This document shows, piece by piece, positions 11,482-33,450 of a stretch of 64,000 bases of DNA (the first letter of the stretch is position 1; the number at the start of each line of letters is the position of its first letter). The notes beneath the pieces were generated by a model. It was not told the origin of the DNA. It was given only the letters and a program-made list of their open reading frames with translations, and searched no databases. Made by a program: the position numbers and the translations under genes. The stretch is from Gallionellaceae bacterium (GTDB taxonomy: Bacteria; Pseudomonadota; Gammaproteobacteria; Burkholderiales; Gallionellaceae): NCBI GenBank assembly GCA_030823955.1, contig JAVBYO010000004.1, positions 62,001-126,000 of the forward strand, in the 5' to 3' direction.

Positions 11482-13974
11482 CTACCCCTGTCTTGCGGCG
11501 ATCTGCGGCAGATGCCAGATATCCCGGTTGTAATCCAGGATGGTCCGGTCACTGGAGAACTTGCCGCTGGTCGCCGTATTCAAGATACTCATCCTTGTCC
11601 AATGCTCGGTATCGCGATAGGCGACTGCCACCTCGCGTTGCGCCTGCACGTAACTGCGGAAGTCGGCTGCCGTCAGCCACGGATCATGCGGGCTATAGAT
11701 CGCCTGGACGATCGCATCAAAAATACCCGGCTCGAACAGATTGAAATGTCCGCTCTCCAGCAGATGCATCACCCGCTTAAGATCCTCATCCTCGGCAATG
11801 ATCCGTGCCGGATCATAATGGCCGCGCGTCTGCTCCACCTCTTCTGCGGTCAATCCGAACAGGAAGAAATTCTCGTGTCCGGCCTCGTCACGAATCTCGA
11901 TGTTGGCACCATCCAGCGTCCCGATGGTCAATGCTCCGTTCATCATAAACTTCATATTGCCCGTGCCGGAGGCCTCTTTACCGGCAGTCGATATCTGCTC
12001 GGACAGGTCGGCACCGGCACAGATCACCTCCATCGCCGATACGCGGTAGTCCGGAATGAAGGCAAGTTTGAGCAAGCCCGCGGTATCCGGATCGTTATTA
12101 ATGACCGCCGCGACAGCATTGACCAGTTTGATGGTGCGCTTGGCCATTTTGTAGCCGGGAGCCGCCTTGCCGCCGATCAACACACAACGCGGCGTCCAGT
12201 CTGCGGTGTCGCCGCGTTTGATACGGTCATAGAGGTGGATCACATGCAGCACATTGAGCAGTTGCCGCTTGTATTCATGGATACGTTTGACCTGCACATC
12301 GAACAGCGCATCGGTATTGAACTCCACACCACAATCGCGTTTGACCATTTCGGCCAGACGCGTTTTGTTGGCCTGCTTGATGGCTCGCCACTTGACCCGG
12401 AACGCCGCATCATCGGCGTGGGAAGCCAGTCCGCGCAACTTGCTCATATCAATGAGCCATCCTTCGCTCGGTGCATGGCCGACCAGATTGGAGACCCAGC
12501 CCTTGCCCTCGGAACCCAATGTGTCCGTAATCAGGTTGCTCAAGGCCGGATTGGCCCAAGCCATCCAGCGGCGCGGCGTAACGCCGTTCGTCTTGTTGTT
12601 GAACTTCTTCGGCCACAGTTCATAGAAGTCGCGGAACAGATATTTCTTCAATAGGTCGGAATGGAGCTCTGCCACCCCGTTCACCGACACGCTGGCAACA
12701 ATGGCCAGATAAGCCATACGGATGTGCTGTTCATGCCCTTCCTCAACGATGGACATGCGCCGCTGCCGCTCGACATCCCCGGGCCAGTGTTGCGCGACGA
12801 CTCTCATGAAGCGCGCGTTGATCTCGTAGATAATTTCCAGCAATCTGGGCAACAGACGGCCAAACATGCTGACCGACCAGCGTTCCAATGCCTCCGGCAA
12901 CAACGTATGGTTGGTGTATGCCACGGTACGACTGGTGACTGCCCAAGCCTCTTCCCAAGTCATACCGTGTTCATCCATCAGCAAACGCATCAACTCGGGA
13001 ACGGCACAGGTCGGATGGGTATCGTTCAGCTGGAAGAAGTTCTTTTCGGCGAAATCGCTGAAATCGTTGCCATGGTTGCTTACCCATTGACGCAACACAT
13101 CCTGCAAGCTGGCCGAGGCCAGGAAATATTGCTGGCGCAAACGCAATTCCTTGCCGTTCTCGCTCGCATCGTTGGGGTACAGCACCATGGTGATGTGTTC
13201 GGCAGCGTTTTTCGCCGCGACCGCATCGGCATAACTGCCCGCATTGAATTCACTCAGATCGAATTCTTCGGTCGCCGCGGCCTTCCACAGGCGCAAGGTA
13301 TTCACTGTACCGTTGTGATATCCGGGGATAGGCACATCGTACGGCACCGCCATCACGTCACTGGTGTATTTCCAATAGGCGCGCAATCGGCCGTTGGTGT
13401 CCTGATGCAACTCGGTCTGTCCGCCGAACTTCACCCGCGCGGTGAACTCGGGACGTTCGATCTCCCACGGATTACCGTTGCGCAGCCAGTGATCCGGCTC
13501 TTCCAGCTGATAGCCATTGTCGATTTTCTGACGGAACATACCGTATTCATAACGCAGACCGTAACCCATCACCGGCAGTTGCAGGGTGGCACAACTATCC
13601 AGAAAACAGGCCGCCAGACGTCCCAGGCCGCCATTCCCCAAACCGGCATCACTCTCCTGTTCGGCCACTTCTTCCATCTCGATGCCGAGATTACGCAATG
13701 CCTCGATGGTGGAAGCCTCGATGTCAAGATTCAGCGTGGCGTTACCCAGCGCCCTGCCCATCAGGAACTCCAGCGAAAGATAATAGGCCCGCTTGCAATT
13801 CTGCTCACGGTAAGCAAGCTGGGTATTCTTCCAGCGCTCGACCAGACGATCCCGCATGGAGTGGGACAAGGAAGCGTAGACATGGTGCGCAATGAGCTGT
13901 TTATTGTTCCATCCCAGGGTATGGCTGAAATAACGGCGAAAATCTTGCAGTATGCTTTCCGCATCCATGCCCAT
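11482..13974 (-). CDS. glgP: Glycogen phosphorylase (copy 1)
   Basis: Pyridoxal-phosphate enzyme that releases glucose 1-phosphate from glycogen; 830 residues from the ATG at 13974. The PLP lysine lies in EASGTGNMKFMMNGALTIGT near the C-terminus; the glycine-rich GNGGLGRLAACFLDS is also present. The start is uncertain: no Shine-Dalgarno precedes ATG 13974 or 13968, whereas the open frame runs 28 more codons to a stop at 14059, and an ATT codon at 14034 sits five bases after GGAGAG, giving a 20-residue extension with FFVKNPLAIDTDLPP. The gene precedes glgA, and a second, distinct copy lies at 30976-33450. Confidence 0.95.
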   Translation of the reverse strand: MGMDAESILQDFRRYFSHTLGWNNKQLIAHHVYASLSHSMRDRLVERWKNTQLAYREQNCKRAYYLSLEFLMGRALGNATLNLDIEASTIEALRNLGIEMEEVAEQESDAGLGNGGLGRLAACFLDSCATLQLPVMGYGLRYEYGMFRQKIDNGYQLEEPDHWLRNGNPWEIERPEFTARVKFGGQTELHQDTNGRLRAYWKYTSDVMAVPYDVPIPGYHNGTVNTLRLWKAAATEEFDLSEFNAGSYADAVAAKNAAEHITMVLYPNDASENGKELRLRQQYFLASASLQDVLRQWVSNHGNDFSDFAEKNFFQLNDTHPTCAVPELMRLLMDEHGMTWEEAWAVTSRTVAYTNHTLLPEALERWSVSMFGRLLPRLLEIIYEINARFMRVVAQHWPGDVERQRRMSIVEEGHEQHIRMAYLAIVASVSVNGVAELHSDLLKKYLFRDFYELWPKKFNNKTNGVTPRRWMAWANPALSNLITDTLGSEGKGWVSNLVGHAPSEGWLIDMSKLRGLASHADDAAFRVKWRAIKQANKTRLAEMVKRDCGVEFNTDALFDVQVKRIHEYKRQLLNVLHVIHLYDRIKRGDTADWTPRCVLIGGKAAPGYKMAKRTIKLVNAVAAVINNDPDTAGLLKLAFIPDYRVSAMEVICAGADLSEQISTAGKEASGTGNMKFMMNGALTIGTLDGANIEIRDEAGHENFFLFGLTAEEVEQTRGHYDPARIIAEDEDLKRVMHLLESGHFNLFEPGIFDAIVQAIYSPHDPWLTAADFRSYVQAQREVAVAYRDTEHWTRMSILNTATSGKFSSDRTILDYNRDIWHLPQIAARQG

Positions 13975-14128
13975 CGGGGGCAGGTCGGTATCGATAGCGA
14001 GCGGATTCTTGACGAAAAAGGACTTGGTATGAATGATGACTCTCCAATGATTGCTGATTTATAGAATTTTTAGTTTCGTGATTATACCGGAGCGGGATGA
14101 CAAGCTCACGACAGCTGCACCTTAAACC

Positions 14129-15052
14129 TTACAAACCGCTCAATACCTTGATATGTGCCGCTACGCTGCGCCCCAGCGCATGTAACGCGTACCCCCCCTC
14201 CAATACCGAAACGATACGTCGCCCGGCGTGCTTTTCCGCCATCGCTTTGAGTGCTTCGGTCACCCATACATAATCTGCTTCACGCAACGCCAATCCGCCC
14301 ATATCGTCCTCCCGGTGGGCATCGAAACCCGCCGAGATAAACAGCATCTGCGGCTGGAAACGTTCCAGCGCAGGCAACCAGTGCTGGGTGACTGCCGCCC
14401 GAAAGTCCTCCCCCGAAGCGCCGGCGGCCAGTGCTACGTTGATGATGTGCTCATTGCCGCTATCGGCCCCGCAATAGGGATAATAGGGATGGCGAAAGGT
14501 CGAACACAACATCACACGCGGGTCATCACGAAAGATGTTTTCAGTACCATCACCGTGGTGCACGTCAAAATCGGCAATGGCCACCCGTTGCAGGCCATAC
14601 TGTTCCAGTGCATGAGCCGCCGCCACCGCGACATTGTTGAAGATGCAGAAACCGGCCGCCCCGCCCCGCCCCGCATGGTGGCCGGGCGGGCGGATGTTGC
14701 AGAATGCATTCTCTGCCTGCCCCGCCATCAACAGATCGACCGCTTGCACCCCCGCGCCCGCCGCGTACAGGGCCGCATCCAGAGTGAACGGATTCATCGC
14801 CGTATCACCGTCCAGATGTACCAGCCCGGTTTGCGGCGCGCGCGCGAACACCGATTCGACATATGCCCCGTCATGGACGCGCAACAACTGTTCCCGCGTC
14901 ACACGGGGCGGCTCATGATGGGAGAGAAAGTGCAGCAAACCCGATGCGATGAGCTGATCTTCGATGGCATTGAGACGCGCCGGACACTCCGGATGATCCG
15001 CTCCCATATCATGTTTTAAACAGAGCGGATGGGTCAGATAGGCGGTCAACAT
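14129..15052 (-). CDS. Histone-deacetylase family protein (class II HDAC-like amidohydrolase)
   Basis: A 307-residue zinc deacetylase of the arginase/HDAC fold. Key residues visible: the catalytic His pair His125-His126 in RPPGHHAGRGG, zinc ligands Asp163 and His165 in DFDVHHGDGT, a third Asp in ISAGFDAHRED, and the C-terminal GGY motif (EGGYAL). Bacterial members remove acetyl groups from lysine, polyamines or acetoin-like substrates, so the substrate cannot be read from sequence alone. It starts 12 bases after the stop of the GNAT acetyltransferase fusion, so a writer/eraser pair for protein acetylation is the simplest reading. Acetoin utilisation (AcuC) is less likely because no acu genes are near. 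Confidence 0.9.
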   Translation of the reverse strand: MLTAYLTHPLCLKHDMGADHPECPARLNAIEDQLIASGLLHFLSHHEPPRVTREQLLRVHDGAYVESVFARAPQTGLVHLDGDTAMNPFTLDAALYAAGAGVQAVDLLMAGQAENAFCNIRPPGHHAGRGGAAGFCIFNNVAVAAAHALEQYGLQRVAIADFDVHHGDGTENIFRDDPRVMLCSTFRHPYYPYCGADSGNEHIINVALAAGASGEDFRAAVTQHWLPALERFQPQMLFISAGFDAHREDDMGGLALREADYVWVTEALKAMAEKHAGRRIVSVLEGGYALHALGRSVAAHIKVLSGL

Positions 15053-15064
15053 GATGGCCTGCGT

Positions 15065-17743
15065 TCAAAGCACCTTGCGTACCGACTTGATACTGTCATC
15101 TTCGGCACTCGTTTCGACGCTGAAACCCAGCCTGTCCATCAGGTGCAGCATGTCGGTGTTGTTCCTCAACACCTCGCCTTCGATCACCTTCAAACCTTTG
15201 GAGCGCGCGGCATCCATCATCGCCCCCATCAACTTTTGCCCCAGCCCCTTGCCGTGCATACAATCCGCGATCACCAGCGCGAATTCGCAGCTTTCGCCGT
15301 CCGGGTTGGTGGCGAAACGTGCCACGCCGAGTTCGACCTCCTTACCGCCCTCCTCCGTCACGGCGATAAGGGCCATCTCGCGGCTATAATCGATCTGCGT
15401 GAAGCGCACCAACATGGCATGGCTCAGCTCCTGCACACTGTTCATGAAACGGAAATAGCGCGATTGCTCGGACAGATTGCGCACAAAAGCCTGCACCAGC
15501 TCGGCATCCTCCGGACGGATAGGACGAACGGTGATATTGGTGCCGTCGGCCAATTGCCAGTGATTCACCAGATGGGAAGGATAGGGATAGATCGCCATGT
15601 GCGCATAACGGTCCGCACTTGGCTGCCTGAAATCTACCACCACACGTGCATCGGCCGCCAGCACGCCGTGCTCGTCCACGATCAGCGGGTTGATGTCCAT
15701 CTCCATCAGCATGGGCAGCTCACATACCATTTCCGACACACGCAACAACACACTTTCCAGCGCGTCCATGTCGGCCGGCGGCATATGACGGAACGCGCCC
15801 AACAGCTTGGAGATGCGGGTGCCCTTGATAAGATCTTTGACCAGAAAAGTGTTCAGTGGCGGCAAGGTGACCGAACGGTCTCCCATCACCTCCACCATCG
15901 TCCCGCCTGCGCCAAACGTGATGACCGGACCGAATACCGGATCGTTGATCACCCCGACCATCAGCTCGCGTCCGTTCGGTTTGACGATCATCGGCTGGAT
16001 CGAGATGCCCTCCATATGGGCATTGGGACGGTTGCGTTTGATGTTCTCGGTGATCTCGTGATACGCCGCACGCACTGCCTGGGCATTGCCCAGATTGAGC
16101 ATCACCCCACCGGCATCACTCTTGTGCGTGATATCGCGCGAATTGACTTTCATCGCCACCGGAAAGCCGAGTTGCTGGGCGATCAACAGTGCTTCATTGG
16201 GGGAATGGGCCACCATGGTCTGCGCCACCGGAATATGGAAGGCGGACAACAACGCCTTGGATTCCATCTCGCTCAATACCTTGCGTTTGTCGAGCAGAGC
16301 GCCTTCGATCACCATCCGCGCGCCTTCCACATCCGGCTCCAGATGATGGGACAACGGCCCCGGCATCTGCATCAACAGTTTCTGGTTCTGGTAATACGCG
16401 GAAAGATATGAGAACACCTCCACCGCCGGTTCCGGCGTGCGGAAATTGGGAGTCTTGGCACGGGCGAATTCCTTGCGCGACTCGGCCACCTGAGCCTCCC
16501 CCATCCAACAGGTCAGCAAAGGTTTCTTGTGGCTCTTGGAAAGTTCGATCACCGCCTTGGCCGCTTCCAGCGGCTTGGTCATCGCCTGCGGCGTAAGGAT
16601 GGTCAACACGCCGTCCACATTCGGGTCTTCCAGGCACGCCGCGACCGCATGCTGGTAACGGTCGACCTGTGCGTCGCCGATCACATCGACCGGATTGCCA
16701 TGTGACCAGTTCGGCGGCAATACCTGGCTCAGACGTTCCATCGTGGCATCGGACAACGTCGCCATGACCAGACCCAGATCCGATGCGCGATCCGTCGCCA
16801 TCACCCCCGGCCCGCCACCATTGGTGACGATGGCCAAACGGTTACCGGAGGGATGGAAGCCACAAGACAATGCCTTGGCTGCCGAGAACAACTCCGTCAC
16901 CGTCTTCACCCGTACCACACCGGCACGACGCACGGCGGCATCGAAGGCATCGTCCGAGCCGACCAGTGACGCGGTATGCGACATGGCCGCTTTGGAACCT
17001 GCCTCGTGCCGCCCCACCTTGACCAGGATCACCGGCTTGACGCGTGCAGCCGCACGCAACGAACTCATGAAGCGCCGCGACTCGCGTATCCCTTCGATAT
17101 ACATCAAGATGTTCTGCGTCTGGGTATCGTTCACCAGATAATCGAGTATCTCGCCGAAATCGACATCGGCAGAAGAACCCATCGACACCACGCTGGAGAA
17201 CCCCACATCGTTCAACTGCGCCCAGTCCAGTACAGCCGTACACAAAGCGCCGGACTGGGAGACCAAGGCCAGATTACCGACATTGGCACCACCCTTGTTG
17301 AAAGTGGCGTTCAACCCGATATTGGGACGCATCACCCCGAGGCAGTTCGGCCCCACCAGCCGGATGCCATAACGCTTGGCGTTGTCCAGCACCTTGCGTT
17401 CCAGTTCTTTGCCCTCGGCACCGATCTCGCCAAAACCGGCGGTGATGATAACGGCGGCTTTGACACCGCGCTTGCCGCATTCTTCGATGATATCCGGCAC
17501 GGTCTGTGGCGGCGTAGCGATCACCACCAGCTCGACCTTTTCCTCGATCTGGGAAATGGAAGCATATGCCTTGCGGCCCTGTACTTCGGCGTTCTTGGCA
17601 TTGATCGGATAGAGCGCGCCCTGAAAGCCGCTTTCCAGCATATTCTGAAAGACGATCTGGCCGACCGCATCGGTGCGATCACTGGCACCGAAGACGGCTA
17701 CGGACTTGGGTGCAAAAAGCGGGGTGAGATAGTGTTTGGACAT
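15065..17743 (-). CDS. Fused NDP-forming acyl-CoA synthetase-like / GNAT acetyltransferase (Pat/PatZ type)
   Basis: An 892-residue protein with the architecture of the protein lysine acetyltransferases Pat (Salmonella) and PatZ (E. coli). Order: CoA-binding Rossmann domain (about 8-105, FAPKSVAVFGASDRTDAVGQ), two succinyl-CoA-ligase-like domains (about 130-460), an ATP-grasp domain (about 490-700), and a C-terminal GNAT domain (about 730-890) with the acetyl-CoA loop HGKGLGQKLM. His256 in SHTAS lies where active ADP-forming synthetases carry the phospho-histidine, so residual synthetase activity cannot be excluded. Known Pat targets include acetyl-CoA synthetase. It lies between hoxW and the deacetylase. 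Confidence 0.9.
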   Translation of the reverse strand: MSKHYLTPLFAPKSVAVFGASDRTDAVGQIVFQNMLESGFQGALYPINAKNAEVQGRKAYASISQIEEKVELVVIATPPQTVPDIIEECGKRGVKAAVIITAGFGEIGAEGKELERKVLDNAKRYGIRLVGPNCLGVMRPNIGLNATFNKGGANVGNLALVSQSGALCTAVLDWAQLNDVGFSSVVSMGSSADVDFGEILDYLVNDTQTQNILMYIEGIRESRRFMSSLRAAARVKPVILVKVGRHEAGSKAAMSHTASLVGSDDAFDAAVRRAGVVRVKTVTELFSAAKALSCGFHPSGNRLAIVTNGGGPGVMATDRASDLGLVMATLSDATMERLSQVLPPNWSHGNPVDVIGDAQVDRYQHAVAACLEDPNVDGVLTILTPQAMTKPLEAAKAVIELSKSHKKPLLTCWMGEAQVAESRKEFARAKTPNFRTPEPAVEVFSYLSAYYQNQKLLMQMPGPLSHHLEPDVEGARMVIEGALLDKRKVLSEMESKALLSAFHIPVAQTMVAHSPNEALLIAQQLGFPVAMKVNSRDITHKSDAGGVMLNLGNAQAVRAAYHEITENIKRNRPNAHMEGISIQPMIVKPNGRELMVGVINDPVFGPVITFGAGGTMVEVMGDRSVTLPPLNTFLVKDLIKGTRISKLLGAFRHMPPADMDALESVLLRVSEMVCELPMLMEMDINPLIVDEHGVLAADARVVVDFRQPSADRYAHMAIYPYPSHLVNHWQLADGTNITVRPIRPEDAELVQAFVRNLSEQSRYFRFMNSVQELSHAMLVRFTQIDYSREMALIAVTEEGGKEVELGVARFATNPDGESCEFALVIADCMHGKGLGQKLMGAMMDAARSKGLKVIEGEVLRNNTDMLHLMDRLGFSVETSAEDDSIKSVRKVL

Positions 17744-17760
17744 AGGAGCGGTATGAAAAG

Positions 17761-17774
17761 ATTTTCCGGAAAAT
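17761..17774. repeat. 14-bp perfect palindrome upstream of the acetyltransferase gene
   Basis: ATTTTCCGGAAAAT is self-complementary over all 14 bases and lies 17 bases before the start codon at 17743, in the 87-base hoxW-pat gap. Position and symmetry suit a dimeric regulator site; no regulator can be named. Too short and AT-rich to be a terminator. Confidence 0.4.
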
Positions 17775-17830
17775 AATTGCGGATGAGATGACTCGAGTAG
17801 GAGTAGATCCTGATCGTTGTTATGGTGCAG

Positions 17831-18379
17831 CTAACAGCTAGCCTGTTGGTGTTGATTATCCTCGCGGTGTATTGATCTTTCCAGCGTTTTCGGCGTGCAC
17901 AGGCCTTGCCAATAACTACCGTCCGGCTCTTGCAGCAGTTTCTTGCAGAATTCGAACGCCGCTTTTTTGTGCTCGAGCGCATCACCGCCAAGACCCTCAC
18001 CCAGTTCATAGCGCTCACCGCGTATGCATAACACATACACCTCCGGCGGCATCTCTTGGTAGAACTGTCGATACACCTGCAATAACGCCTGCGGCTCCAG
18101 AGCATGGCTATAGAGCACCGGCTCGTTATTCATGTCCAAACGCTGGAAAGAAAAAGGCGCGGGCGTATCCATCCCGGCATCGATAAACAACACCAGCTTT
18201 CTGCCCTGCATATCCATCGCGTGTTCGATCTGCAACTGGAACTCTTCCAGCAACTCGAATCCATGCGCGTCACCATTGGCATGCAAATACGCTTGCAGTT
18301 CGCGCAATAACAATGGGCCCAGCCCGTCATCCCCGCGCGACTCATTACCTACGGCAAAGATCAGTACCGGTGCCAGCAT
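17831..18379 (-). CDS. hoxW: Hydrogenase maturation endopeptidase HoxW
   Basis: A 182-residue nickel-dependent protease of the HybD/HyaD family that cuts the C-terminal extension from the hydrogenase large subunit after nickel insertion. The N-terminus shows the family signature VGNESRGDDGLG (residues 10-21), whose Glu is a nickel ligand in HybD, and a conserved FIDAGMD stretch. The frame is open further upstream to 18496, but the ATG at 18379 overlaps the hoxH stop (TGATG), which fits coupling and family length. It follows its substrate gene hoxH directly. Confidence 0.9.
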   Translation of the reverse strand: MLAPVLIFAVGNESRGDDGLGPLLLRELQAYLHANGDAHGFELLEEFQLQIEHAMDMQGRKLVLFIDAGMDTPAPFSFQRLDMNNEPVLYSHALEPQALLQVYRQFYQEMPPEVYVLCIRGERYELGEGLGGDALEHKKAAFEFCKKLLQEPDGSYWQGLCTPKTLERSIHREDNQHQQASC

Positions 18380-19869
18380 CAGTCGGTATTGCACAGTACG
18401 CCGGCGCTGGAGCGGGACAGTGCGGACAAACGCTCGCCCGCTCCGCCCAGTACTTCGACTTCCAGCGGCATCTTGCCCAGTGCGTGGGTCGCACACGACA
18501 GGCAGGGATCGAAAGCGCGGATCGCCACTTCGATATGGTTGAGTAGTCCTTCGGTGATCTCATGCCCGTGCAGATATTGCTGCGCGACACGGCGCACTGC
18601 CTCGTTCATAGCCTGATTGTTATGCGTGGTCGAGACGATGAGGTTACACATGGTGACGAGATCGTTTTCATCCACACGGTAGTGATGGATCAGCGTACCG
18701 CGCGGCGCCTCGATCACCCCCACCCCTTCACTACCGCGTTCGCCTGTCGCCATCAGCTCGCTGCCCATGATGTCGTCATCGTGCAGCAGGTCTTTGATCA
18801 TCTCGGCGGCATGCAACATCTCGATCATGCGCGCCCAGTGGTAGCCCAGCGGTGCATGCATAGGCATCACGCCGCTGTAGGCCATGAACTCGCGCCGCTC
18901 CACCTCGGCCAAAGGCGTCGGGATGAAATCACAGTTCTGCACACGCGACAGCGGACCAACACGGTACCAGCCCTTCTCTTTGCCCAAGGACTTGAGGTAA
19001 GGGAACTTCATATAACTCCAGTTCTTTACCTCTTCCTCGATCAGCTGGGTGTAGTTCTGGTAGTCCACCCCGTCGAACAGTATCTGGCCGTTCTCGTCGC
19101 GTCCGCGCAGACGGCCGTGATACAGGTCCATCCCGCCGTCGAAGCCCACCATGGACATATAGTTGGCGCGGAACGCCCCGAAACTGTTGTACAGCTCGGG
19201 ATTCTTGTGGTGCATCTCCTTCACCAGATGTACCGCATCACGGCTCCAAGACACCATCTGATAGACATCCTTAAGCAACGTGTCACGCTCGTCGACACTC
19301 AGCGATTTGTTCACGCCACCTGGAACAGAGCCCGTGCCATGCACACGTTTGCCTGCCGTATGACGGATGACTTCCTGTCCGAATTTGCGCAACAACACAC
19401 CGCGCTTTGCCGTATCGGGATGTTTTTCCGCCACGCCGATGATGTTGCGCTTGGCGACGTCGCTATCGAAACCGAACAGCAGGTCGGGCGAGCACAGATG
19501 GAAAAAATGCAGCGCATGCGATTGCAATATCTGTCCGTAATGCATCAAACGGCGGTTCTTTTCCGCAGTCGGCGTCAGGTGTTTCGCGCCGACGATGGCA
19601 TCCAGCGCTTTGCTGGCGGCCAGATGGTGACTCACCGGGCAGATGCCACACAAACGCTGCACCATCACCGGCACTTCCCAATACGGGCGACCCTGAATGA
19701 ATTTTTCAAAGCCGCGAAACTCGACGATATGCAAACGCACCTGATGCACTTTGTTCTTGTCGTCGAGCAGGATAGTGACCTTGCCGTGACCTTCCACGCG
19801 CGATACCGGATCGATAACGACACGGCGCAGGTTCTCGGGATGGGCGGCGGTTTCCAGGGTAGATGACAT
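18379..19869 (-). CDS. hoxH: NAD-reducing [NiFe] hydrogenase large subunit HoxH
   Basis: A 496-residue catalytic subunit holding the NiFe(CN)2CO site. The nickel ligands are in RLCGICPVSHH (Cys74, Cys77) and DPCLSCATH (Cys456, Cys459). A 34-residue tail follows His462, the expected HoxW cleavage point (CATH/ALGK), so this is a precursor needing maturation. Family: group 3d bidirectional, NAD-linked hydrogenases, as in Cupriavidus necator. It catalyses reversible H2 oxidation with NAD+ through HoxFUY. It is preceded by AAAGG and begins ten bases after hoxY. No hyp maturation genes are in the window. Confidence 0.96.
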   Translation of the reverse strand: MSSTLETAAHPENLRRVVIDPVSRVEGHGKVTILLDDKNKVHQVRLHIVEFRGFEKFIQGRPYWEVPVMVQRLCGICPVSHHLAASKALDAIVGAKHLTPTAEKNRRLMHYGQILQSHALHFFHLCSPDLLFGFDSDVAKRNIIGVAEKHPDTAKRGVLLRKFGQEVIRHTAGKRVHGTGSVPGGVNKSLSVDERDTLLKDVYQMVSWSRDAVHLVKEMHHKNPELYNSFGAFRANYMSMVGFDGGMDLYHGRLRGRDENGQILFDGVDYQNYTQLIEEEVKNWSYMKFPYLKSLGKEKGWYRVGPLSRVQNCDFIPTPLAEVERREFMAYSGVMPMHAPLGYHWARMIEMLHAAEMIKDLLHDDDIMGSELMATGERGSEGVGVIEAPRGTLIHHYRVDENDLVTMCNLIVSTTHNNQAMNEAVRRVAQQYLHGHEITEGLLNHIEVAIRAFDPCLSCATHALGKMPLEVEVLGGAGERLSALSRSSAGVLCNTD

Positions 19870-26883: not shown

Positions 26884-27131
26884 CTCGCCTCCCAACGATT
26901 CAGATAACTGTATAAACAGGCCGAACTGTACCACTACTTGGACTCCCCAAGCGGGCCAGTTCAGAATTTTTAAAATGTGCTGAAAGTATATTGCACGACG
27001 CAGCCAAAAGGCATAGGCTTCCGTCCAGACGATCTCATTTGAAAAAATAATATCCCTGCAACATCGAACAACGATAATCCTGCCATCACCTCACCTACTC
27101 CCCCTGAAAATATCAATTAAGGATGAACATC

Positions 27132-29501
27132 ATGAGTACCCAAGCCACGCCCTTGTCTCCCGATGAAGTCAAAAATATCCACGCTTACTGGCGTGCCTGT
27201 AACTATCTGGCCGCGGGGATGATTTATCTGCGCGAAAACCCGCTATTAAAAGAACCTCTCAAACCCGAACACATCAAGAACCGTTTGCTCGGTCACTGGG
27301 GCGCCAGCCCCGGCTTGGCATTCACTTACATCCACATGAACCGTCTGATCAACAAATACGATCTGGATGCGATCTTTATGGCGGGCCCCGGGCACGGCGC
27401 CCCCGGCGTACTGGGGCCGGTATATCTGGAAGGCCGCTACAGTGAGGTGTATCCAAACAAGGGCGAGAACGAAGAAGGTATGCGCCAGTTCTTCAAGGAA
27501 TTCTCATTCCCCGGCGGTATCGGCAGCCATTGCACACCGGAGACACCCGGTTCCATCCATGAAGGCGGTGAACTCGGTTACAGCGTGTCGCATGCGTTCG
27601 GCGCAGCCTATGACAATCCCGACTTGATCGTGACCGTGATGGTGGGCGACGGTGAATCCGAGACCGCGCCGCTGGCGACCTCGTGGCACTCTAACAAATT
27701 CCTCAATCCGATTCGCGACGGTGCGGTGCTGCCGGTGCTGCACCTGAACGGCTACAAGATCAACAACCCGACCATCCTGTCGCGCATCTCGCACGAAGAG
27801 TTGGAGAACCTGTTCAAGGGTTACGGCTGGACGCCCTACTTCGTCGAAGGCAGCGACCCGGAGACCATGCACCAAGCGATGGCCGCCACAATGGAAGCCT
27901 GTGTGCTGGAAATCCGCCGCATCCAGGCCGAAGCTCGTAGCAGCGGCAAGCCTATCCGTCCACGCTGGCCGATGATCGTGCTGCGTTCACCCAAGGGCTG
28001 GACCGGCCCGAAGGAAGTGGACGGCAAAAAAGTCGAAGGCTTCTGGCGCGCGCACCAAGTGCCGATCGGCGATGTGAAAACACCTGAGCATTTCGCTAAG
28101 CTGGAAGAATGGCTGAAGAGTTACAAGGCGTCCGAACTGTTCGACGAGAGCGGTGCCTTGCGCCCGGAACTGAAAGCATTGGCACCAAAAGGCAACCGCC
28201 GCATGAGTGCGAACCATCACGCCAACGGCGGCTTGTTGCGCAAAGCGCTGCATATGCCGAACTGCAAGGATTACGCCATCGAGGTGAAGAAACCCGGCAC
28301 GACCACCGCCGAGAACACCCGTCCGCTGGGCAAGTTCCTGCGCGACATCATGCGCGACAACATGACCAACTTCCGCGTGTTCGGCCCGGACGAGAACAGC
28401 TCGAACAAACTGGACAATGTGTATGAAGTGAGCAAGAAGACCTGGCTGGCGGATTACCTGCCGGAAGACGCGGGCGGTGGCGAACTGTCGCCGGATGGCC
28501 GCGTGATGGAGATGCTGTCCGAACATACGCTGGAAGGCTGGCTGGAAGGTTATCTGCTCACCGGCCGCCACGGCTTCTTCTCCACCTACGAAGCGTTTGT
28601 GCATGTCATCGACTCGATGTTCAACCAACACGCCAAGTGGCTGGCCATGTCCAAAGACGTGCCTTGGCGCGCACCCGTTTCTTCGCTGAACCTGCTCATC
28701 ACTTCCACCGTATGGCGTCAGGATCACAACGGCTTCACCCACCAAGACCCCGGCTTCCTCGACGTGGTGGTAAACAAGAGTCCTGAAGTGACACGCATCT
28801 ATCTGCCACCCGATGTGAACTGCCTGCTGTCGGTCGCCGATCACTGCCTGAAGAGCACCGACTACATCAACGTGATTGTGTGCGATAAACAGAAACACTT
28901 GCAGTTCCTGGACATGGATGCCGCCACCAAACACTGCACCAAAGGTATCGGCATCTGGGATTGGGCTTGCAACGACCAGGGTTCGGAGCCGGATGTGGTC
29001 ATCGCCAGTGCCGGCGACATCCCGACCAAAGAAGCTCTGGCTGCCGTGGTACTGTTGCGCGAAAATTTCCCCGATTTGAAGATACGTTTCATCAACGTGG
29101 TCGACCTGTATAAATTGACCCCGGCCAGCGAACACCCGCACGGTCTGACAGACAAAGATTTCGACAGTCTGTTCACCAAAGACAAGCCGGTGATGTTTAA
29201 CTTCCACGGCTACCCTTGGCTGATCCACCGCTTGGCTTACCGTCGTAACAACCACAAGAACTGGCATGTGCGCGGTTACAAGGAAAAAGGCAGCATCAAC
29301 ACCCCGCTGGAACTGGCGATCCAGAACCAGATCGACCGCTTCAGCTTGGTGATCGACGTGATCGACCGCAATCCGGCGTTGCATGTCGCCGGAGCACATG
29401 TCAAAGAGAAGATGCTGAACCGTCAGATCGAGTGCCGCAACTATGCCTACGAACACGGTATCGATCTGCCGGAAGTCGACAACTGGACATGGCCTTTCTA
29501 A
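27132..29501 (+). CDS. xfp: Xylulose-5-phosphate/fructose-6-phosphate phosphoketolase
   Basis: A 789-residue thiamine diphosphate enzyme that splits xylulose 5-phosphate (or fructose 6-phosphate) with phosphate into acetyl phosphate and glyceraldehyde 3-phosphate (or erythrose 4-phosphate). Signatures: [33 protein letters not shown], the ThDP/Mg motif VMVGDGESE, and C-terminal [13 protein letters not shown]. ATGs at 27123 and 27132 are both in frame; AAGGA is eight bases before 27132, so the second is preferred. Its product feeds acetate kinase downstream. Divergent from the FIST gene across 248 bases that must hold both promoters. Confidence 0.96.
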
Positions 29502-29607: not shown

Positions 29608-30663
29608 ATGAAATCCATTCTCACCATCAACAGCGGCTCGTCATCGATCAAGGCCAGCCTGTTCGATACGGACGGTTCGCGGCGCAATTTTCGCTACGAG
29701 CACTTGCGCGACCACGGGCCTGCGTTCGACCAATTGATGTGTGACCTGCACGGACATACACCCGACATTATCGGCCATCGTTTCGTGCATGGCGGAGAGA
29801 TCGTCGATGCGGCACGCCTGGTAGACGCCACAGAACGTGCTCGGCTGGAGAGTATCGTCCATCTTGCCCCCTTGCATCTGCCGGGGAACCTGATGGGGCT
29901 GGATCTGTGCGCACGCCGCTTCGACGTTCCGCAAGTCGCCTGCTTCGATACCGCTTTCCATACCACGATGCCTGAACTGGCAAAACGCCTGCCGATTCCC
30001 CGTGAACTCGGCCTGCGCCGTTTTGGATTCCATGGACTGAACTACGCCTATATCGCGACTTGCTTGCCCGCCGCTCTGGGTGCGGCCTCCTCCGGCAAGA
30101 TCATCATCGCCCATCTGGGTAGCGGGGCCAGCCTGTGTCTGCTGCATGCGTTAAGATCGGCGGATACCACGATGGGTTACACCCCCGCCGGCGGAATTAC
30201 GATGGGCACCCGCAGCGGCGACCTCGACCCCGGTGTCATCTTGGAACTGAGCAAACGTTACGACAGCACCGAACTGAGTGACCTGATCTTCCATCGGATG
30301 GGGTTGCTTGCCCTTTCCGACGGGGAAAGCAGTGAGATGAGCGAACTGCTGACCAGCGCTACCATCTCAGCCGGTTTCGCCGTAGACTATTTCTGCGCCC
30401 AGGTACGTGCCTCCATCGGTAGTCTCGCGGCAAAAGCTGGAGGGATGGATGCACTCGTATTCACCGGGGGAATAGGTGAACATGCTGCGGAGATAAGGGA
30501 AAAGATCTGTGCGCCCTTGGCTTTCCTAGGTGTCGCATTGGATAACGAGCGCAACCGCTCCGCAACTGGCCGAATCGAATCTACAGGCAGCAAACCGGTG
30601 CTGATCATTCCGGCCGATGAAGAATCCATGATCCGGTCACTATGCCAATTTTTTATAGACTGA
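29608..30663 (+). CDS. ackA: Acetate kinase (short form)
   Basis: Transfers phosphate from acetyl phosphate to ADP, giving acetate and ATP. Motifs of the ASKHA acetate kinase family: NSGSSSIKASLF near the N-terminus, HRFVHGG (substrate Arg), FDTAFH, HLGSGASL, TRSGDLDPG, FTGGIGEHAAEIR, and PADEESMI. At 351 residues it is about 45-50 shorter than typical AckA, though both ends and all named motifs are present. It begins 106 bases after xfp with no obvious Shine-Dalgarno, so it may be read by coupling or structure-dependent initiation. No phosphotransacetylase is nearby, which fits acetyl phosphate coming from phosphoketolase. Confidence 0.93.
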   Translation: MKSILTINSGSSSIKASLFDTDGSRRNFRYEHLRDHGPAFDQLMCDLHGHTPDIIGHRFVHGGEIVDAARLVDATERARLESIVHLAPLHLPGNLMGLDLCARRFDVPQVACFDTAFHTTMPELAKRLPIPRELGLRRFGFHGLNYAYIATCLPAALGAASSGKIIIAHLGSGASLCLLHALRSADTTMGYTPAGGITMGTRSGDLDPGVILELSKRYDSTELSDLIFHRMGLLALSDGESSEMSELLTSATISAGFAVDYFCAQVRASIGSLAAKAGGMDALVFTGGIGEHAAEIREKICAPLAFLGVALDNERNRSATGRIESTGSKPVLIIPADEESMIRSLCQFFID

Positions 30664-30975: not shown

Positions 30976-33450
30976 TTATTTTTGTCCGACTGGTTTCACA
31001 TCCCATATCTCTCTGGCGTATTGCGCGATGGTGCGATCACTGGAGAACTTGCCCATGTTAGCCACATTAAGAATGGATTTCTTCACCCAGGTGTCCTGAT
31101 CCCGATAGGCCGCATCGACCTCGGCCTGACAGGCGATGTATGAAGCATAATCGGCCAGCAACAGGTATTTATCACCGTGGTGCAACAGATTGTCGATGAT
31201 CGGCTTGAAACGTGCCGGTTCGCTCGGTGAGAAGAACCCCGAACCTATCATGTCCAACACTTCGCGCAATTCAGCATTGCCATCGTAATATGCGCCGGGC
31301 TGATGACCTCTGGCCTGTATCTCCGCGACCTGATCCGTGGTCAAACCGAAGATGAAGATGTTTTCCCATCCCACTTCCTCGCCGATCTCGATGTTCGCGC
31401 CGTCCAGCGTACCGATAGTCAGCGCGCCGTTCAATGCCAGCTTCATATTGCCGGTACCGGAGGCTTCTGTTCCGGCGGTCGATATCTGTTCGGACAAATC
31501 AGCCGCAGGCACGATGATCTCGGCCGTGGAGACATCGTAGTTGGGGATGAAAACGACCTTCAGTCTGCCTGCCACTTGCGGGTCATTGTTCACGACATCG
31601 GCGACATCATTGATGAGCTTGATGATGAGTTTGGCCACGGCATAACCCGGTGCCGCCTTGCCGCCGAAGATGACGGTACGCGGTACACAATCCCCCCCGC
31701 GGCGGATACGGTTATACAGCGTGACTATATGCAGCACATTGAGCAGTTGCCGCTTATATTCGTGGATACGTTTGATCTGCACATCGAACAACGAATCGAC
31801 GTTCACATCGAGGCCCAATTTGTGTTTGATCAAACCGACCAGACGCTGCTTGTTGGCCCGTTTGATCGCCGCATACTGTGCGCGGAAGCTGGCATTTTCG
31901 ACAAGCGGGATGAGTGCCTTAAGCTGGCTCAGATCCTTTAACCAGCTTTTACCGATATTCGAATTGATTAGCTCGGCCAATTGCGTGTTAGCCTGATTCA
32001 ACCAGCGGCGCGGCGTGATGCCATTGGTCATGTTGACGATCTTGCCCGGATAGAGCCGGTCGAAATCGGCGAATATCGTCTGCCGCATCAGTTGCGTATG
32101 GATCGCCGCCACCCCGTTCACCTTGTGGCTGCCTACGATGGCGAGATGTGCCATGCGGATGCGTTTCCCCCCCTCCTCCCCGATGATCGACATGCGACGC
32201 AACAAGTCGTTCTCTCCGGGAAAATGATGGCGTACCTCTTCCAGGAATCGATGATTGATCTCGTAAATGAGTTGCATGTGCCGTGGCAGGATGTTCTCGA
32301 ACATCGCCACCGGCCATGTCTCCAGTGCCTCCGGCATCAGGGTGTGGTTGGTATAGGAGAAGGTATGCCGCGTGATGTCCCAGGCTTTTTCCCACGGAAC
32401 GTGGTGCAGGTCGACCAACACACGCATCAGTTCGGCAATGGCGATAGCCGGGTGTGTATCGTTCAACTGGATCGCCACTTTGTTTGGCAGTTCGTCAAAG
32501 TGGTCGTGGTCCTTAAGATAGCGAGTCAGGATGTCCTGCAATGACGCACAGGTGAAGAAATATTGCTGTTTCAGGCGCAGCTCATGCCCCATCTGGGTCG
32601 AGTCATTCGGATACAGCACTTTTGAGAGATTCTCGGAGCGGTCTTTATCCTCTACCGCTTTGATGTAGTTGCCCTGGTTGAAATAGCCCAGGTCAAAATC
32701 GCGCGAGGATTTAGCCGCCCACAGTCGCATGTTGTTCACCGTGCGCGTCCCGTATCCGGGAATGGGGGTATCGTGCGCCATCGCCATCACATCGTCGGTG
32801 TCCATCCAGTGGTGACGCACCACACCGTTCTCATCCTTATATTCGGCTACGTGACCGTGGAACTTCACCTGATACAGCACCTCAGGACGGCCAAACTCCC
32901 AGGGATTGCCATAACGCAGCCAGTTGTCCGGATGTTCGATTTGGCGGCCTTCCTCGATATGCTGCTGGAACATGCCGTATTCGTAACGAATACCGTATCC
33001 GTATCCGGGCAGATCCAGTGTCGCCATTGAATCGAGGAAACAGGCTGCCAAACGCCCCAGACCTCCGTTGCCGAGAGCAGCGTCGTATTCCACGTCACGC
33101 GCAGCTTCCAACTCCACACCCAAGTCGTGTAATGCTTCGCGCGTCGCCTGATCCATTTCCAAATTGTGCAGGCTATTCATCAGGGCGCGTCCCATCAGAA
33201 ATTCCATCGACAGGTAATAGACGCGTTTCACATTCCCTTCGTAATAACTGCTCATGGTCTGCATCCAGCGATCGATCAAACGATCCCGCACGACATAAGC
33301 GGAAGCCATGAACCAGTCGCGGTCAGTCGCGGTGAGTGCGTCTTTTCCAACCGAATAGATCAGGCGCTCATCCAGCGCATCCCTGATCGAATTCCTGTCA
33401 AAGGCCTTTTCCAAATGGCATACCAACGCCTTCTTTGATTTTATCGCCAT
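30976..33450 (-). CDS. glgP: Glycogen phosphorylase (copy 2)
   Basis: An 824-residue PLP-dependent phosphorylase with the lysine motif EASGTGNMKLALNGALTIGT and the glycine-rich GNGGLGRLAACFLDSMATLD. It is clearly related to copy 1 but diverged throughout, so it is an old paralogue rather than a recent duplicate; different regulation or substrate (maltodextrin versus glycogen) is possible. Its ATG at 33450 has an excellent AGGAGGAG site. It lies next to, and convergent with, xfp-ackA-orf85, where released glucose 1-phosphate could supply phosphoketolase substrates. The 221 bases upstream (33451-33671) are taken as its promoter; I see no clear motif. Confidence 0.95.
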   Translation of the reverse strand: MAIKSKKALVCHLEKAFDRNSIRDALDERLIYSVGKDALTATDRDWFMASAYVVRDRLIDRWMQTMSSYYEGNVKRVYYLSMEFLMGRALMNSLHNLEMDQATREALHDLGVELEAARDVEYDAALGNGGLGRLAACFLDSMATLDLPGYGYGIRYEYGMFQQHIEEGRQIEHPDNWLRYGNPWEFGRPEVLYQVKFHGHVAEYKDENGVVRHHWMDTDDVMAMAHDTPIPGYGTRTVNNMRLWAAKSSRDFDLGYFNQGNYIKAVEDKDRSENLSKVLYPNDSTQMGHELRLKQQYFFTCASLQDILTRYLKDHDHFDELPNKVAIQLNDTHPAIAIAELMRVLVDLHHVPWEKAWDITRHTFSYTNHTLMPEALETWPVAMFENILPRHMQLIYEINHRFLEEVRHHFPGENDLLRRMSIIGEEGGKRIRMAHLAIVGSHKVNGVAAIHTQLMRQTIFADFDRLYPGKIVNMTNGITPRRWLNQANTQLAELINSNIGKSWLKDLSQLKALIPLVENASFRAQYAAIKRANKQRLVGLIKHKLGLDVNVDSLFDVQIKRIHEYKRQLLNVLHIVTLYNRIRRGGDCVPRTVIFGGKAAPGYAVAKLIIKLINDVADVVNNDPQVAGRLKVVFIPNYDVSTAEIIVPAADLSEQISTAGTEASGTGNMKLALNGALTIGTLDGANIEIGEEVGWENIFIFGLTTDQVAEIQARGHQPGAYYDGNAELREVLDMIGSGFFSPSEPARFKPIIDNLLHHGDKYLLLADYASYIACQAEVDAAYRDQDTWVKKSILNVANMGKFSSDRTIAQYAREIWDVKPVGQK

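Follow-up and report, generated by a model that had tools for sequence, protein, structure and literature searches.

The usual target of Pat-type protein acetyltransferases is the acetyl-CoA synthetase Acs, and the known eraser for E. coli PatZ is a sirtuin. According to the excerpts of the papers cited here, AcuA of the Bacillus acuABC system is a type III GNAT without a synthetase fusion and AcuC is a cluster 2 deacetylase with GGGLHH and GGGY motifs (PMC11532494, PMC8556138), RSGKIMR is the acetylation site of Bacillus AcsA (PMC11532494), acs transcribed away from the acu genes is the layout described for Bacilli (PMC13121692), and AcuB is missing from the S. aureus operon (PMC8556138). In the excerpted text of PMC8556138, the synthetase domains of type I GNATs are called inactive; for class II the cause given is the absence of the catalytic histidine, and class I is described as alike. 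For an ADP-forming synthetase of Nitrosopumilus, a phosphate relay is reported in which H535 accepts phosphate from ATP and the swinging-loop H256 passes it to the substrate (PMC11494057, in excerpt). Among the zinc deacetylases, RPP and EGGY are tied to robust, acetyl-preferring lysine deacetylases; small-molecule hydrolases occur in cluster 1, some members of clusters 1 and 4 are small-molecule or polyamine hydrolases, two cluster-1 members have turned to pesticides with RPA replacing RPP, and polyamine deacetylases have PEG or PIS motifs, PIS in the bacterial ones (PMC11532494, in excerpt). We found no prior description of a Pat paired with a zinc HDAC in the open-access literature, outside which most subscription papers lie.

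The locus described here, located in a 64,000-nucleotide stretch of a Gallionellaceae genome (the window), is a conserved two-gene unit that combines a type I-like acetyltransferase with a cluster-1-like zinc deacetylase. We consider it likely that the pair is a reversible lysine-acetylation switch that acts chiefly on Acs and resembles AcuA/AcuC, built from other protein families; the enzyme activities, the target and the opposition of writer and eraser are what we infer.

The putative writer and eraser genes and their surroundings

The pair consists of the following features (genes from the ORF list and Pfam):

15065 to 17743, minus strand, gene of the Pat-type protein, 892 aa
15053 to 15064, minus strand, 12-base spacer from the Pat stop codon to the HDAC ATG
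14129 to 15052, minus strand, gene of the HDAC-family zinc deacetylase, 307 aa

Coordinates, spacer and Pfam domains agree with the first-pass annotation, which had placed a Pat/PatZ-like fusion and an HDAC 12 bases apart on the same strand. The two genes are probably on one transcript; promoter and terminator scans of positions 13800-18600 gave nothing usable above shuffled sequences. On the minus strand, the pair belongs to a run composed of hoxF-U-Y-H, a HoxW-like protease gene, pat, hdac, glycogen phosphorylase and glycogen synthase (hox and glg names were partly given by eye, as was that of the protease, which had no Pfam match). The window holds two glycogen phosphorylase genes, one after the pair (11482-13974) and one near the xfp and acetate kinase genes (30976-33450); the latter was named by Pfam, and the former by its similarity to the latter. 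The genome itself (2.25 Mb, 36 contigs, 85% complete) has Gallionellaceae MAGs as its closest named relatives, and the nearest HDAC among the best 80 of >500 loci was 88% identical (L001).

Pfam analysis of the Pat-type protein revealed CoA_binding_2, Succ_CoA_lig, Ligase_CoA_2 and ATP-grasp_5 domains, corresponding to an NDP-forming acyl-CoA synthetase part, and a C-terminal GNAT domain (about residues 730-880) with a catalytic-type Glu820. The top solved matches were the full-length protein acetyltransferases 9isq and 9it0 (555 bits), followed by ADP-forming synthetases, among them 8wzu and 4xyl. Glu820, with which the Glu of E. coli PatZ (from NC_000913) aligned, was found in 58 of 59 full-length sequences (the window and 58 loci), and the remaining one had Asp.

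By motif matching, His540 and His256 of the window Pat are taken as the counterparts of the relay histidines of the Nitrosopumilus enzyme. Both were present in all 59 full-length Pats and, in a wider set, in 81 of 82 Pats linked to the HDAC and in 62 of 73 whose linkage is loose or absent (the counts omit L108, L116, L165, E. coli PatZ and Pats excluded from the full-length set for being too short). The latter count weakened the idea that the histidine pair is a peculiarity of HDAC-linked Pats; the difference in retention (Fisher 0.0015) is uncontrolled for relatedness, with the unlinked rows mostly from more distant genomes. One or both histidines were lost in a number of Pats without tight HDAC linkage (L092, L096, L099, L103, L121-L123, L132, L133, L143 and L144), frequently by a change of His540 to Tyr. 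In E. coli PatZ (NC_000913), aligned to the window Pat, the swinging-loop (alpha) histidine is absent. Since the window Pat, unlike E. coli PatZ, retains both phospho-relay histidines, its synthetase domain may be live. Such retention runs counter to the general view of these acetyltransferases as dead synthetases, and judged by sequence, the statement to that effect in the excerpted PMC8556138 does not hold for this Pat group. We filed the window Pat as type I-like by its layout only, because the inactive-synthetase feature is descriptive rather than defining and unlinked Pats mostly retain the histidines.

The 307-aa protein matched Hist_deacetyl of Pfam over residues 20-304 (5.6e-87), and its best solved relative was 5ji5 (378 bits, full length). 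The deacetylase motifs are located as follows:

Residues 121 to 126, RPPGHH
Residues 161 to 169, DFDVHHGDG
Residues 240 to 246, SAGFDAH
Residues 285 to 288, EGGY

All catalytic motifs are present, and RPPGHH, DFDVHHG and EGGY were retained in 81 of 81 deacetylase sequences. When compared to the cluster 1 motifs given in PMC11532494, the window deacetylase contained RPPXHH, the Asp-His-Asp zinc site and EGGY. The gatekeeper residue at position 251 was Met in 97 of 99 sequences. Met251 aligned with Lys/Leu of the two HDAC6 domains, and from this alignment we take it to be the position of the gatekeeper Glu of HDAC10. In HdaH-type chains (369-382 aa), the aligned stretches started at residues 35-46; because of these offsets and the length of 307 aa, the N-terminal L1-loop region of sub-cluster 1b and the C-terminal helix are probably missing from the window deacetylase.

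Conservation and orientation of the pair

From a scan of named genomes for the HDAC, the best 80 of >500 loci were taken. A Pat or Pat remnant was found beside the HDAC in 69 of these 80 loci (36 divergent, 33 in the same direction), and the gap was within 222 bp in 63. Counted among the 69 linked loci are two Pat remnants (L045 and L046) and six cases in which the gap measures 1.8-2.4 kb, while the 11 loci without a Pat beside the HDAC comprise 9 real absences and two (L007 and L056) that end too near to tell. In the Nitrosomonas loci L045 and L046, Pat has shrunk to 98 and 48 residues, with the deacetylase intact. An amino-acid-permease-like gene (by eye) is inserted between pat and hdac in four loci from Nitrosomonas.

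In 18 of the 25 genomes of the own family (G000-G024), the pair was located on one contig within 2.1 kb, with 12 pairs in the same direction and 6 divergent (Pat is a piece in G007 and G009). Two further family genomes had both genes on separate contigs, and five had no HDAC match. Both genes were present in 75 of 150 genomes sampled from the order, within 250 bp of each other in 23 and at 1.7 kb in one more. Chance falls far short of explaining this adjacency: with the genes placed randomly in 3.5 Mb, about 0.01 genomes would be expected to have them within 250 bp, compared to the 23 observed. The HDAC is not tied to this particular Pat, since the genes were unlinked in 51 of the 75 genomes and 41 of 116 HDAC genomes were without Pat at E 1e-150. 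The unlinked set includes three genomes in which the two genes are separated by 5-9 kb containing surE, pcm, nlpD and rpoS-like genes (by eye); the linked and unlinked lists of the order were compiled by hand, and the class counts were made by eye.

In the class sample (143 genomes), 23 genomes besides the own one held both genes, and 9 of these were tight, including one same-direction pair, one tail-to-tail pair and one genome (G218) with two separate pairs. In the phylum sample (249 genomes), Pat matched in 66 genomes; for the best 30 Pat loci, the flanking 1.5 kb on either side was inspected as well. Only 1 of 28 (the best 30 of 66 minus the own locus and one order genome) had an HDAC beside it, in the same direction at a distance of ~30 bp; this locus, L150, is in a genome of another class. 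Linkage is frequent within the own order and its vicinity and becomes rare at greater distances. The adjacency on which the first-pass annotation had made its proposal depend held in the order and class samples and among the best 80 HDAC loci.

Four orientations of the pair exist. In the HDAC trees, divergent pairs occurred on most branches, and pairs in the window's same-direction arrangement were nearly all gathered in a single clade (37 rows, of which 34 are same-direction, 2 unscored and 1 divergent); two linked order genomes had the order hdac then pat. On the 110-row HDAC tree, which has several long branches and weak deep forks, the linked states needed 7 orientation changes (L007, L045 and L056 are without state in both trees, and L108 and L116 were dropped from the 110-row tree as duplicates of L058 and L077). 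Therefore, the two genes have remained adjacent despite several changes of orientation. Much of the linkage count is shared descent, because the same-direction genomes are nearly all in one clade.

The divergent pat/hdac spacers share TATGATAGCACC (e.g., L010, L020, L024, L043, L049 and L057). The word ATGATAG was detected in 20 of 49 divergent spacers, with a maximum of 6 in shuffles, and the shared word resembles a -10 box on the side of the deacetylase gene. The window had no occurrence of it beyond chance, and sigma-54, CRP and FNR consensus patterns matched 0 of the 49 divergent spacers.

When the 943 open frames from 91 linked loci were clustered, HDAC was recovered in 75 loci and Pat in 74; cut or masked frames probably account for the misses. 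The next cluster, with 10 loci, was an antisense frame over HDAC (by coordinates in L178), and no third recurring gene was found above about 6 of the 91 loci. The hox and glg genes were rejected as parts of the unit, as they were beside the pair in 5 and 3 of the best 80 loci, respectively (the hox count omits a weak 27% hoxH match in L045).

A proposed acetylation switch and its alternatives

The Acs of the own genome scored above the TIGR02188 cut-off and has a PKTRSGKIMRRL-type motif near its end; RSGKIMR (the RSGK motif) occurs in it. The genome also holds a PrpE-like enzyme with PKTRSGKTLRKT. Among the best 80 loci, acs was found beside the pair in one, that of a Methylotenera (L011), where it is transcribed divergently at a distance of 367 bp from pat-hdac. 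Genes of OYE and LysR type (identified by eye) are located upstream of acs in the own genome (L084, C32) and upstream of pat-hdac in L005, L026, L042 and L067.

The first-pass annotation had advised checking the genome for CobB. No sirtuin was found in the own genome, at 85% completeness, and a full-length SIR2 match was found in 0 of 25 family genomes, with a partial match in 5. In the order sample, SIR2 was detected in 4 of 24 linked and 23 of 51 unlinked genomes (p 0.02); in the class sample, from which G072 was omitted because it was already in the order sample, in 2 of 9 and 6 of 13 (p 0.38); and in the pooled samples (full SIR2), in 6 of 33 and 29 of 64 (p 0.013), with relatedness uncontrolled in all three comparisons. 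Sirtuins tend to be rarer in linked genomes, some of which (the 4 of the order and 2 of the class) do carry a CobB-like sirtuin. Since the statistics are not phylogeny-controlled, sirtuin replacement is only a trend.

The presence of pat and hdac side by side in many bacteria suggests a joint action as a single switch. In this scheme, the Pat-type protein would sense acetyl-CoA and perhaps adenine nucleotides through its synthetase domain, and its GNAT domain would acetylate a lysine. The zinc deacetylase would then strip the acetyl group and turn the target enzyme back on, filling the role that the sirtuin CobB has in E. coli and Salmonella. As a tentative and doubtful extension, the cycle could be self-fuelled: acetate released by the eraser would be recharged to acetyl-CoA by the writer's own ADP-forming synthetase, and the writer would read the ATP/ADP/phosphate state, the energy-sensing role of AcuB in Bacilli, while the AMP-forming Acs is off.

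We regard it as unlikely that the deacetylase is a housekeeping eraser, which mainly removes non-enzymatic acetylation by acetyl phosphate and not the marks of its neighbour. For this reading speak the 41 order genomes with HDAC but without this Pat and the presence in the window of two further genes:

27123 to 29501, strand opposite to the pair, xfp, 9 kb from the pair
29608 to 30663, strand opposite to the pair, acetate kinase

However, xfp was found beside the pair in 0 of the best 80 loci, and the conserved partner is an acetyltransferase. Thus, the acetyl phosphate source noted in the first pass is indeed in the window, but 9 kb off, on the other strand and outside the conserved unit; the hox, glg and xfp surroundings are incidental.

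Still less probable is acetate salvage, in which the HDAC-family protein cleaves acetyl-amides (acetyl-polyamines or other small molecules), the synthetase recharges the acetate to acetyl-CoA, and protein acetylation is secondary. The relay histidines in 81 of 82 linked Pats fit a live synthetase, and cluster-1 and cluster-4 relatives include small-molecule or polyamine hydrolases (PMC11532494, in excerpt). However, in one linked pair (L184, G218:C50) both relay histidines and a large share of the ATP-grasp part are gone from the synthetase domain, although the GNAT is intact; therefore, the linkage concerns the acetyltransferase. Moreover, the gatekeeper Met is neither the Glu of HDAC10 nor the PIS of bacterial polyamine deacetylases, and RPP is intact, whereas the pesticide hydrolases have RPA (same source).

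It is very unlikely that the genes are adjacent merely by descent, with unrelated jobs, since, although nearly all genomes with the window's same-direction arrangement are in one clade, most order genomes with both genes have them apart, and the trio with 5-9 kb distance looks like ordinary synteny, other neighbours were retained in at most about 6 of 91 loci, and the pair survives several orientation changes, is present twice in G218 and recurs in the other-class L150.

The acetylation switch would mean that a PatZ-kind writer with a zinc HDAC in the sirtuin's place is widely conserved in Betaproteobacteria-type lineages, among them iron oxidisers, methylotrophs and ammonia oxidisers. With likely candidates for the opposing enzyme and the target at hand, the cellular role of bacterial cluster-1 HDACs, a long-open question, would become directly testable.

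Comparison with known systems

The eraser resembles the cluster 1 deacylases KpHdaH and FB188 HdaH (solved relative 5ji5) in having all catalytic motifs, but with 307 aa it probably lacks the N-terminal L1-loop region and the C-terminal helix of sub-cluster 1b. With E. coli PatZ and Salmonella Pat, which are paired with CobB, the writer shares the synthetase-GNAT order and the full-length similarity to 9isq and 9it0. In contrast to PatZ, which is without the swinging-loop histidine, the window Pat has both histidines and a zinc HDAC as its neighbour.

In line with Bacillus acuABC, the genes for a GNAT writer and a classical zinc deacetylase are located together, an Acs with RSGKIMR is encoded in the genome, and acs in L011 diverges from the pair in the way that acsA does from acu. 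A zinc HDAC partner had been called less usual in the first pass; since acuABC is a known precedent, such a partner is less unusual than claimed. The families of AcuA and AcuC are not matched: the window writer has a type I layout, and the eraser has the cluster-1 motifs RPPGHH and EGGY. Furthermore, an AcuB-like third gene is not recurrent at the pair (91 linked loci). With a writer and an eraser from other families and no recurrent AcuB-like gene, the pair is not a member of acuABC; we infer that it works like AcuA/AcuC but outside that system.
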